Shown here one piece after another: positions 1 through 40,978 of a stretch of 41,097 nucleotides of DNA. Location of the stretch: positions 104,865-145,961 of the forward strand of contig JABAQZ010000020.1 of assembly GCA_019187405.1 (NCBI GenBank). Reading direction: 5' to 3'. Origin of the DNA: Ignavibacteria bacterium (GTDB lineage Bacteria; Bacteroidota; Ignavibacteria; Tepidaquicellales; Tepidaquicellaceae). Under the pieces are notes generated by a model, which was given only the letters and a program-made list of their open reading frames with translations, was not told where the DNA came from and made no database searches. Numbering within the stretch: the first letter of the stretch is position 1; each line of letters starts with the position of its first letter. The translations under genes were made by a program, and so were the position numbers.

Positions 1-1130
1 TTTCTCGCAGATAACGCAGATACTTTCTCGCAGATTCCACAGAGACTTTCTCGCAGATTACGCAGACTCTCTCACGCAGAAACCGCAGAGACTTCCTCGC
101 AGATAACGCAGAGACTTTCACGCAGATAACGCAGACTCTCTCTCGCAGATTTCGCAGACTCTCACTCGCAGATTACGCAGACTTTCTCGCAGATTTCGCA
201 GACACCTAACGTAGATTCCACAGATACTTTCACGCAGATAACGCAGAGACTTTCTCGCAGATTCCGCAGACTCTCGCAGATTCCGCAGACTTTCTCGCAC
301 AGATTCTGCAGACTCTCGCGCAGATTCCGCAGACTCTCGCGCAGATTTCGTTGAAGTTTCTCGCAGATAACGCAGATACTTTCTCGCAGATTCCACAGAG
401 ACTTTCTCGCAGATTACGCAGACTCTCTCACGCAGAAACCGCAGAGACTTCCTCGCAGATAACGCAGAGACTTTCACGCAGATTACGCAGACCCTCTCTC
501 GCAGATTTCGCAGACTCTCACTCGCAGATTACGCAGACTTTCTCGCAGATTTCGCAGACACCTAACGTAGATTCCACAGATACTTTCTCGCAGATTCCGC
601 AGAGACTCTCTCACGCAGAAACCGCAGAGACTTCCTCGCAGATAACGCAGAGACTTTCACGCAGATTACGCAGACCCTCTCTCGCAGATTTCGCAGACTC
701 TCACTCGCAGATTACGCAGACTTTCTCGCAGATTTCGCAGACACCTAACGTAGATTCCACAGATACTTTCACGCAGATTCCGCAGAGACTCTCTCGCAGA
801 TTCCGCAGAGACTCTCTCGCAGATAACGCAGAGACTTTCTCGCAGATTCCGCAGACTCTCGCAGATTCCGCAGACTTTCTCGCACAGATTCTGCAGACTC
901 TCTCGCAGATTCCGCAGACACCTAACGCAGATTTCGCAGACTCTCGCTCAGATTCCGCAGACACCTAACGCAGATTCCGCAGAGACTTTCACGCAGATTC
1001 CGCAGAGACTTTCACGCAGATACCGCAGAGACTTTCACGCAGATACCGCAGACATCTCACGCAGATTCCGCAGACATCTCACGCAGATTATACAGAGACT
1101 TATACGCAAATTCCGCTGACACTTCGCACA
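1..1130. repeat. Large array of degenerate 19-24 bp direct repeats (core CGCAGATTNCGCAGA)
   Basis: The first 1.1 kb consists almost wholly of units of the form CTTTCTCGCAGATTNCGCAGA, about 19 to 24 bp long and directly repeated. There is also a higher-order structure: the stretch from 1 to about 230 recurs from 357 to about 586, and 421 to about 585 recurs from 604 to about 769 (offsets of 356 and 183 bp). Copies two and three share variants that copy one lacks, such as GCAGACCCTCTC, so the last duplication is the youngest. Units decay towards 1080-1130. The array is open in several frames on both strands, giving long apparent proteins rich in Ser, Arg and Gln. These show no ribosome binding site and no protein-like composition, so I read the region as non-coding. 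It runs off the left edge of the window. Confidence 0.93.
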
Positions 1131-37038: not shown

Positions 37039-37440
37039 GTAGGGGTAACCCTCGAAGTTGTCCTGTGTGAAATGTGGTTGTGAATAAACAACAAAGCGAC
37101 AAAATCTGGTCAACCATAAAGGTCGCCCCTGCGAAAGAAATTTTATAAAATGTAGGGGCAATCCTTGTGGTTGCCCTGTTGTGTTATGAAATGAAAAAAT
37201 CGTAGGGGCAATCATTGTGGTTGCCCTGTTGTGTTATGAAATGAAAAAATCGTAGGGGCAACCATTGTGGTTGCCCTGTTGTATTATGAAATGAAAAAAT
37301 CGTAGGGGCAACCATTGTGGTTGCCCTGTTGTGTTATGAAATGAAAAAATCGTAGGGGCAACCATTGTGGTTGCCCTGATGTGTTATGTGGTTATGAATA
37401 AATATCTGGTGACAAAATCTGGACGACCATATTGGTCATA
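37039..37440. repeat. REP-like hairpin cluster with five 50-bp tandem copies
   Basis: Five units start at 37152, 37202, 37252, 37302 and 37352, an exact 50-bp period. Each contains the hairpin GGGCAACCA-TTG-TGGTTGCCC (the first two have single-base variants), then a spacer ending in ATGAAATGAAAAAATC. A diverged copy lies at 37039. Both ends of the cluster carry a second module, TGTGGTTRTGAATAAA followed by GACAAAATCTGG and a GGTC-ended hairpin (about 37074-37130 and 37388-37438). The cluster directly precedes a REP-associated transposase relic. Confidence 0.9.
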
Positions 37441-38521: not shown

Positions 38522-39397
38522 ATGAGAAAATTATTACTGTGCATTCTGATAATATTTTTGATTTTCTCTCAGTTAAGCAAATTGTTTGGGCAGATTCCTC
38601 AATATTTTCTTACAGCAAGAAATTTACATCTGGTTGCTCCTGACAGTCTTTGGTTTGATATTTATCTGCTAAATATAAATTATCATATACCATTTGATTA
38701 TGCACATGGACAATACTTTATGAGTTTTAATCCGAATTTTGGAAATGGGGGGACATTATCATTCAGATTATTAGAAACTGAACCGGGTGACTGCCTGACT
38801 CCGGGAAATCTGAATGTGAGTTCAGGGACGTTAAGATTTTCCAGCACAACTTTTCCAGGACCGGGTAATGGATGTATTATTTCTCATTCGGGTTTAGGTT
38901 CATTGTTAGGGAGATTCAGCTTGAGAACTTCTAATATTTTTATGCCTATTGACTCATTTAAGTTGAAATGGCAAAATCCTCAAAGCATTCTTTCGACAAA
39001 AATTTTTGCATATATAGGAACTACAAATGTTGAAATTACCAATCCTGCAAATCATTTTATTGATCTGCTAACGAACATTGAGCATCAAAAAATTGAGCAT
39101 GCTGAAGATTTTGAATTATTCCAGAATTATCCAAATCCGTTCAACCCCGTAACGATCATCGCATTCACAATTCCACGCGTGGCACAGACTAATAGTCTGT
39201 GCTACGTTCAACTCTCGGTATATGATGTGACCGGAAAGGAAGTGACAAGAATAGTTGATGAATATAACAATGTGGGATATTATGAAGTTGAGTGGGATGG
39301 GAGTGAGTTTGGGAGCGGAATTTATTTTTATAAATTAGAAATCGAGAATGGCGGGAATAAATTTTCGGATACGAAGAGGATGATGTTATTGAAATGA
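38522..39397 (+). CDS. Secreted protein with type IX secretion C-terminal sorting domain (paralog 1)
   Basis: A 291-residue exported protein. The signal peptide (KLLLCILIIFLIFSQLSKLF) ends near FGQ. The middle is a beta-rich domain of unknown function (residues ~25-190, with FDIYLLNINYH, LKWQNPQSILSTKIFAYIG). The C-terminal ~90 residues are a T9SS sorting domain: FQNYPNPFNPVTIIAFTIP, then LSVYDVTGKEVTRIVDEY, VGYYEVEWDGSEFGSGIYFY and KRMMLLK. Between FTIP and LSVYD lie the extra residues RVAQTNSLCYVQ, whose DNA is the same palindrome as the repeat array downstream. The T9SS machinery would cleave the domain and release or anchor the protein at the cell surface. A paralog follows at 40055. Confidence 0.85.
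   Translation: MRKLLLCILIIFLIFSQLSKLFGQIPQYFLTARNLHLVAPDSLWFDIYLLNINYHIPFDYAHGQYFMSFNPNFGNGGTLSFRLLETEPGDCLTPGNLNVSSGTLRFSSTTFPGPGNGCIISHSGLGSLLGRFSLRTSNIFMPIDSFKLKWQNPQSILSTKIFAYIGTTNVEITNPANHFIDLLTNIEHQKIEHAEDFELFQNYPNPFNPVTIIAFTIPRVAQTNSLCYVQLSVYDVTGKEVTRIVDEYNNVGYYEVEWDGSEFGSGIYFYKLEIENGGNKFSDTKRMMLLK
39175..39207. repeat. Palindromic element in frame inside the sorting domain (copy 1)
   Basis: GCACAGACT (39182-39190), AAT, AGTCTGTGC (39194-39202) form a perfect 9-bp stem that extends outward with wobble pairs to about 39177-39207. The flanking ACGCGT recurs before the first unit of the array at 39402. The element encodes RVAQTNSLCYV within the T9SS domain. Copy 2 is at 40756-40788. Confidence 0.85.
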
Positions 39398-39401
39398 AAT
39401 T

Positions 39402-40034
39402 ACGCGTAGCACAGACTATTAGTCTGAGTTACGGTTGATATATTTGTAGCACAGACTATCAGTCTGTGTTACGTTTGATATATTTGTAGCACAGACTATT
39501 AGTCTGTGTTGCGTTTGATATATTTGTAGCACAGACTATCAGTCTGTGTTGTGTTAGATACATTTGTAGCACAGACTATTAGTCTGTGTTGCGTTTGATA
39601 TATTTGTAGCACAGACTATCAGTCTGTGTTGTGTTAGATACATTTGTAGCACAGACTATCAGTCTGTGTTGCGTTTGATATATTTGTAGCACAGACTATC
39701 AGTCTGTGTTATGGTTGACACATTTGTAGCACAGACTATCAGTCTGTGTTGCGTTTGATATATTTGTAGCACAGACTATCAGTCTGTGTTATGGTTGACA
39801 CATTTGTAGCACAGACTATCAGTCTGTGTTGTGTTAGATACATTTGTAGCACAGACTATCAGTCAGTGTTGTGTTAGATACATTTGTAGCACAGACTATC
39901 AGTCTGTGTTGCGTTTGATATATTTGTAGCACAGACTATCAGTCTGTGTTACGTTTGATATATTTTTAGCACAGACTATCAGTCAGTGTTGTGTTAGATA
40001 CATTTGTAGCACAGACTATCAGTCTGTGTTACGA
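39402..40034. repeat. Sixteen tandem 40-bp palindromic repeats between the T9SS paralogs
   Basis: Units start (at GTAGC) at 39406 and every 40 bp to 40006, sixteen in all; one (39966) begins TTAGC. Each has the hairpin CACAGACT-ATC-AGTCTGTG followed by an AT-rich spacer. Spacers come in three forms (GCGTTTGATATATTT, GTGTTAGATACATTT, ATGGTTGACACATTT) arranged in a partly regular order, showing expansion by blocks. The array fills the space between paralog 1 and paralog 2, ending 20 bases before the second start codon. No leader or cas genes, and spacers are not unique, so it is not CRISPR. Confidence 0.95.
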
Positions 40035-40054
40035 CAAACGAAAAAATTAAAAAT

Positions 40055-40978
40055 ATGAAAGGTGCAATTCAAATTGTGGTAGGTTTGTTAGTAACTGTTT
40101 TTACATTAAACAGAGCGTTGCCGCAAGTTCCTACTTATACATTATGTGTTAGAAACATCACTCACATCAGCATCAATTATCCTAATGATGCAATAGTATT
40201 CGACGTTTACTTGCTGAACACAAATCCATCAACGGAATTTAAATTAGCCGGCGGGCAGTTTTATCATTCATTTAATAGAAATATTTTTAACCCTCCTCCT
40301 CCATATCCGCCTGTTGGAAATGATAGTACATACATCAGCTACAAAATATTGGACTCCGAATTGCCTACGATATGGCAGCTAAGAAATCATTCGTTCTTAA
40401 TTGCAACGAATCCATCAGCGGATGTACTTGCAATTGGTAAAACTTTTCCAAATGTAATTATAGATACTGTTTATCCCGGTACATTGATTGCGAAAATGAG
40501 AATTTGGAATAAACTTGGTTCGATGAATAATGTACCGTTGAATTTGCAATGGAGAAATCCCCCAATTGTAAGCTTCGCGACTAAAATCTTTGCAGTTGTA
40601 AACAATTTTTTACGCGATATAACCACTCCTACAACACATTGTATAGAATCAATAACAAACATAAGAACGGAAAACGATATTCCCGCAAAATTTATTCTTT
40701 ATCAGAATTATCCTAATCCGTTCAACCCCGTAACGATCATCGCATTCACAATTCCACGCGTGGCACAGACTAATAGTCTGTGCTACGTTCGACTCTCGGT
40801 ATATGATGTGACCGGAAAGGAAGTTACGAGATTAGTGGATGAATATAGAAATGTGGGATATTATAAAGTAGAATGGGATGGGAGTGAGTTTGGGAGCGGA
40901 ATTTATTTATATAAATTAGAAAACGAGAATGGCGGGAATAAATTTTCGGATACGAAGAGGATGATGATGTTGAAATAA
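40055..40978 (+). CDS. Secreted protein with type IX secretion C-terminal sorting domain (paralog 2)
   Basis: A 307-residue relative of the preceding secreted protein. The signal peptide (KGAIQIVVGLLVTVFTLNRA) ends near LPQ. The middle domain is clearly related to paralog 1 (VFDVYLLNTNPS, GGQFYHSFN, LQWRNPPIVSFATKIFAVV) but much diverged. The last ~95 residues are nearly the same (YQNYPNPFNPVTIIAFTIP, VGYYKVEWDGSEFGSGIYLY, KRMMMLK), including the palindrome-encoded RVAQTNSLCYV. DNA identity over the sorting domain is high even at silent positions, in contrast to the rest of the gene, which implies recent cassette exchange. The 40-bp array ends 20 bases before this gene's start. Confidence 0.85.
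   Translation: MKGAIQIVVGLLVTVFTLNRALPQVPTYTLCVRNITHISINYPNDAIVFDVYLLNTNPSTEFKLAGGQFYHSFNRNIFNPPPPYPPVGNDSTYISYKILDSELPTIWQLRNHSFLIATNPSADVLAIGKTFPNVIIDTVYPGTLIAKMRIWNKLGSMNNVPLNLQWRNPPIVSFATKIFAVVNNFLRDITTPTTHCIESITNIRTENDIPAKFILYQNYPNPFNPVTIIAFTIPRVAQTNSLCYVRLSVYDVTGKEVTRLVDEYRNVGYYKVEWDGSEFGSGIYLYKLENENGGNKFSDTKRMMMLK
40756..40788. repeat. Palindromic element in frame inside the sorting domain (copy 2)
   Basis: GCACAGACT (40763-40771), AAT, AGTCTGTGC (40775-40783), in the same position and reading frame as copy 1, with identical flanks (CCACGCGTG before, TACGTTC after). Confidence 0.85.

Follow-up and report, generated by a model that had tools for sequence, protein, structure and literature searches.

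Rickettsia palindromic elements (RPEs) resemble the locus described here in that they are palindromic inserts read in frame within unrelated protein genes, but differ from it in length (about 100–150 bp for RPE-1), in host group and in having no associated RAYT. Two of them, RPE-4 and RPE-6, have been grouped with the REPs, as members of the CGTC type (PMC3733652). The GTAG REPs, with their RAYTs (REP-associated tyrosine transposases) and REPtrons (PMC2817692, PMC3733652; for REPINs, PMC3116915), share more with this locus, namely a hairpin of 20–40 bp, a terminal GTAG, a RAYT between inverted copies, and an occurrence in arrays, in inverted pairs and, for some copies, within genes; the family analysed here differs from them in its few copies, their confinement to two clusters and the prevailing tag in one of these. 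Translated REPs are already known. Di Nocera (2013) described them in open reading frames (ORFs) of O. terrae, R. conorii and others, proposed that they insert neutrally where a protein has a flexible linker or loop, and found a REP at about the same site in recB of two Xanthomonas (PMC3733652). Those intragenic REPs are mostly scattered, many of them in DNA repair genes, whereas the cases below concern one loop of one abundant domain, two unrelated palindromes and several taxonomic families. The insertion site itself looks new. T9SS sorting tails are not reported as REP hosts in the accessible portion of the REP literature, the accessible portion of the structural work on T9SS CTDs (PMC11285876) describes no repeat element at loop L-beta2-beta3, and a search for palindromic repeats in T9SS tails, mostly outside subscription journals, returned no relevant paper.

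The window analysed here, a stretch of 41,097 nucleotides from an Ignavibacteria bacterium, contains two plus-strand genes that encode proteins of 291 aa (gene 1, 38522–39397) and 307 aa (gene 2, 40055–40978). Both C-termini pass the Pfam and NCBIfam thresholds for the T9SS type A sorting domain (PF18962, 31.0 and 30.7 bits against a cut-off of 27; TIGR04183, 32.6 and 31.5 bits against 23); the domain spans approximately residues 196–291 in gene 1, and gene 2 has the same tail. A scan of the window located the perfect palindrome GCACAGACTAATAGTCTGTGC within each of these tails, at 39182–39202 and 40763–40783, where the in-frame codons of both genes, GCA CAG ACT AAT AGT CTG TGC, give A-Q-T-N-S-L-C within the segment RVAQTNSLCYV. 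Among the sequences searched, this segment was not found without the repeat. Coordinates, codons and profile scores thus bear out the claim of the initial annotation that a palindrome is translated inside two sorting domains; the arms, given there as 9 bp around AAT, turn out to be 10 bp long with a 1-nt spacer, the three letters being split as A/A/T. With their flanks, the two repeat copies occupy 39176–39210 and 40757–40791 on the minus strand. The first has array-like flanks (ACGCGTGGCACAGACTAATAGTCTGTGCTACGTTC) and carries a GTAG tag on the minus strand, with RVAQTNSLCYV encoded on the plus strand. Folded as single-stranded RNA, the in-gene hairpin forms 14 pairs at −23 kcal/mol (z −8.1).

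The most fitting identification of the palindrome is a GTAG-tagged REP, not an RPE. In the genome that contains the window (G000; 3.78 Mb, 38 contigs), it is present in 44 copies, with up to two mismatches allowed, and these fall into two clusters only, one on the contig of the window (C11) and the other on contig C7 (150473–152185). The C7 cluster consists of two arrays of the palindrome with a 193-aa gene between them (L053:5039–5620, minus strand), which matches the RAYT profile NF047646 at 87.9 bits against a cut-off of 80. The nearest REP copies on either side of this gene stand in inverse orientation and point their tags towards it, the arrangement of a cognate RAYT flanked by inverted REPs. 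The C7 copies mostly end in GTAA, not GTAG; in the window, GTAG stands at the hairpin foot in both in-gene copies and in 15 of the 16 units of the array described below, and a GTAG in this place is the mark of GTAG REPs (PMC3733652, PMC2817692). The element is thus a short hairpin palindrome in the 20–40 bp range that is repeated in the genome, but REPs are usually dispersed in more than 100 copies, whereas the 44 copies here are clustered. We take such numbers to be typical rather than defining, because clustered families are published exceptions, as in T. roseum (PMC3733652) and in the REPs that are confined to the vicinity of a rayt gene (PMC2817692).

The space between the two window genes is filled by a plus-strand array of 16 REP units (39406–40030), each composed of GTAG and CACAGACT-ATY-AGTCTGTG. 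The spacing is exactly 40 bp, and the units are near-identical hairpins (39409–40009). The copy number and the family had been correctly recognized in the initial annotation, but the array does not carry exactly the in-gene palindrome: the array palindrome is usually GCACAGACTATCAGTCTGTGT, which differs from the in-gene one by 2–3 bases. The ACGCGT noted there as common to the first array unit and the in-gene copies is indeed present in both, and the similarity continues rightward too (TACGTTYGA).

The two in-gene copies lie within a duplicated segment of the tail (39122–39394 in gene 1 and 40703–40975 in gene 2, both on the plus strand), which runs up to the stop codon and is identical at 258 of 273 nucleotides (94.5%), whereas the remaining protein is only about 32% identical. 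Given near-identical tails on a diverged remainder, we count the in-gene copies as one event. Both paralogs do carry the palindrome, but, to judge from the alignment, not through two separate insertions; probably, a single insertion was copied together with the tail. Mismatches are fewer near the REP (2 of 109 positions) than elsewhere in the tails (13 of 164; p = 0.03, a weak value because the boundaries were chosen after viewing the data).

In an AlphaFold model of moderate confidence (mean pLDDT 69; the input was two nearly identical sequences), the insert lies between strands 18–24 and 34–41 of the tail. A PDB sequence search gave no useful match, and a fold search placed P. gingivalis PorU (6za2) at rank 4 among the top 50 hits (TMq 0.68, E 0.008). 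In the published CTD numbering, we assign the site to L-beta2-beta3, because the next turn, YDxxG, fits L-beta3-beta4, an essential motif that contains a conserved glycine. According to structural work, loops are strongly length-variable among solved T9SS CTDs, the L-beta2-beta3 connector of mirolase comprises 13 residues, and L-beta3-beta4 and the C-terminus, which contain conserved motifs relevant to T9SS function, are required for secretion in P. gingivalis (PMC11285876). The natural length variation of L-beta2-beta3 in mirolase, PorU and PorZ is matched in the genome of the window. The spacing from FNP to YD is 24 residues in the REP-bearing tails against 18 in 43 of 54 sampled tails (a sample biased towards long tails), a net gain of six; nine of the 54 tails, all without the repeat, have 22–29 residues, so that the natural range is 18–29 and a loop as long as that of the two genes can exist without a repeat. 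None of these nine long loops (L026, L028, L038, L042, L055, L059, L060, L069 and L070) contains a palindrome with arms of at least 8 bp. The 6–7 added residues of the initial annotation thus correspond to seven translated residues and a net gain of six, and its tolerated loop between two strands is supported by the model and by the natural length variation. The net gain may not equal the size of the insertion, because the relative closest to gene 1 (G013, 55%) has an equally long loop, of 25 residues, that is not palindromic. No other tail proved similar enough to stand in for an empty site, the best ones being about 50–64% identical at the amino acid level and that of G013 showing low DNA similarity, so the insertion boundaries and any target duplication cannot be fixed. 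In another sorting tail of the same genome (L062, G000:C9:56900–57600), two different loops are expanded, and their peptides, SVEGRPRT and LSTSSGQA, resemble translated repeats of additional families. A Y1-transposase gene (L018, G000:C6:19362–20267) lies about 280 bp from the long-loop tail L026, the loop of which is free of palindromes.

The same loop is occupied by an unrelated palindrome in relatives of this bacterium. Across 391 genomes of the class, we searched for the pattern CCCCTCY..RGAGGGG shortly ahead of YDxLG and found 57 places in 17 genomes from four taxonomic families; the reversed control pattern gave one. Among 29 loci that were read, 26 are PNPF-type T9SS tails with the insert in the loop before YDxLG, two (L239 and L240) are, by eye, tails of the YPNPA type, and one (L249) has a broken frame. 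In the genome G602, 14 of the 27 copies of CCCCTC..GAGGGG lie in this loop, at a constant distance from PNPFNP. The 32-bp element of G602 has a mean identity of 94.5% over 52 pairs of tails whose downstream flanks are less than 70% identical, so its spread is, in part at least and probably to a large extent, independent of the tails. Other copies of this palindrome are intergenic or located in open frames of other proteins; among the latter are L283 and L290 (G602), L297 (G605) and L307 (G176), where the host domains are a WSTATE..GFE domain and an apparent histidine-kinase ATPase domain (NAFKFTPEGG...DTGIG). The palindrome is absent from the window's own genome.

That an unrelated hairpin sits in the same loop in relatives suggests that the loop is a recurrent home for palindromic repeats. 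Most likely, this recurrence is passive, with tolerated insertions spreading along with the tails. We give somewhat less than even weight to the stronger view that the loop before YDxxG is a preferred, reused acceptor for unrelated palindromes; the tails, which number from one hundred to several hundred per genome in this class, would then act as a reservoir in which the repeats last and multiply as translated modules, passing between tails at a higher rate than the tails themselves spread. The recurrence of CCCCTC..GAGGGG is compatible both with a preferred site and with tolerance multiplied by the great number of tails.

The pairing of the REP with a RAYT is seen in several genomes. The same stem also flanks RAYTs in G098 (RAYT 53% identical), G617 and G562, in the last of these in inverted pairs; the RAYT of G412 is accompanied by a one-step stem variant, CACAGATT/AATCTGTG. 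In a RAYT tree of 16 rows, G000, G617, G098 and G412 form one clade (support 95/92), and RAYTs outside this clade are associated with other palindromes, a pattern as expected if the enzyme and its REP co-evolve. The RAYT with the most similar sequence (56%), that of G453, lacks a nearby hairpin of this kind. The tagged palindrome is absent from all 28 other genomes of the family and present in 11 of the 391 genomes of the class, its own genome counted. The palindrome was also looked for in relatives, as proposed in the initial annotation; none of the sampled copies there lies in a T9SS tail, and the samples of the phylum and the class yielded no case of this REP in such tails. When 84,980 species, possibly without records of the window's own genome, were scanned for CACAGACT..AGTCTGTG ahead of a YDxxxG motif, a single place emerged (L221), which is not a T9SS tail. 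In a genome from another class of the phylum (G175, locus L094), an isolated GCACAGACTGGTCAGTCTGTG occupies the corresponding loop in a T9SS tail, with the loop of normal length; we rejected it as a case of the same REP, given that about 0.65 such matches are estimated to arise by chance in the search, and this palindrome is probably a chance one.

We consider it quite probable that the window carries a GTAG REP with its cognate RAYT on C7, which entered a sorting tail once, in frame, after which the tail was copied and the array amplified. The C7 RAYT would be the cognate enzyme, on which the spread of the REP would depend, and is thus the presumed agent of insertion. One copy would have arrived by chance, in frame, in L-beta2-beta3 of a T9SS sorting tail; duplication or gene conversion would then have carried this tail over to the neighbouring gene, and a further, intergenic copy would have undergone tandem amplification into the 16-unit array. 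Such an insertion would be tolerated because the loop is exposed, length-variable and away from both the YDxxG turn and the C-terminus. We infer that the REP-bearing tails are still export-competent and that the protein gains no selected function from the insert. A RAYT would be unnecessary for the in-gene copies if a single old or recombinational arrival had been followed only by conversion and duplication of the tails. The near-identity of the two tails, with the fewest differences around the REP, the adjacency of the array to the genes with flanks in common, and the identical position of the G602 element in 14 tails all fit such a course; yet a first insertion would still be required, and the conservation of the G602 element across tails with dissimilar flanks argues against it, so we hold this course to be rather unlikely.

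We find it improbable that the hairpin, in mRNA or DNA, or the added loop is maintained by selection, for example for pausing or stability close to the mRNA 3' end, as a gyrase or nucleoid-protein site, or through an altered contact with the secretion machine. The hairpin is very stable, effects of REPs elsewhere on mRNA stability and supercoiling have been hypothesised (PMC3733652), and this loop has repeatedly taken up unrelated palindromes, but the element is present in only two of about 250 candidate tail places in the genome, the same palindromes also occur between genes and within other proteins, and recurrence is expected from tolerance combined with very many tails. The likeness to RPEs drawn in the initial annotation holds for behaviour, as the element is palindromic and in frame inside an unrelated gene, but not for kinship: the palindrome measures 21 bp, or about 35–40 bp with flanks, well short of RPE-1, it carries the GTAG tag, and a RAYT in the same genome points to the REP/RAYT system. 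Because of this RAYT association, an RPE in the strict sense is highly improbable. Even a coincidental palindrome has something in its favour, since 5 of 2000 codon shuffles of the tail alone reach a 10-bp arm and the isolated palindrome of G175 is similar in sequence; however, near-identical palindromes form the 16-copy array and flank the RAYT, and zero occurrences of GCACAGACTAATAGTCTGTGC are expected from shuffles of the window (n = 100). Because the in-gene palindrome matches both the array and the C7 cluster, chance is, for practical purposes, excluded.

A loop that has received two unrelated palindromes offers a natural series for the survival and movement of hairpins inside coding DNA, and also for the parts of the sorting signal that the export machine ignores. 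For annotation, low-complexity segments such as SPLLGGARGG and LSRGVSEGRG in these tails should be read as translated repeats. The RAYT on C7 and both of its REP arrays lie within a type III-A CRISPR locus (L053, G000:C7:146000–156500), with Csm4, a Csm6/Csx14-type ring nuclease, a Card1-like protein and a TM1812-family protein as neighbours. The window contains two further repeat arrays. At 37147–37388, about 4.9 copies with a 50-bp period carry another GTAG-tagged hairpin (GTAGGGGCAACCATTGTGGTTGCCC), which folds at −17.2 kcal/mol and is absent from the flanks of all seven Y1-transposase loci of the genome; this array is probably a different REP family. At the start of the window (1–1124), units of 23/46 bp (TTTCTCGCAGATTCCGCAGAGAC) are repeated in a long but imperfect tandem array.
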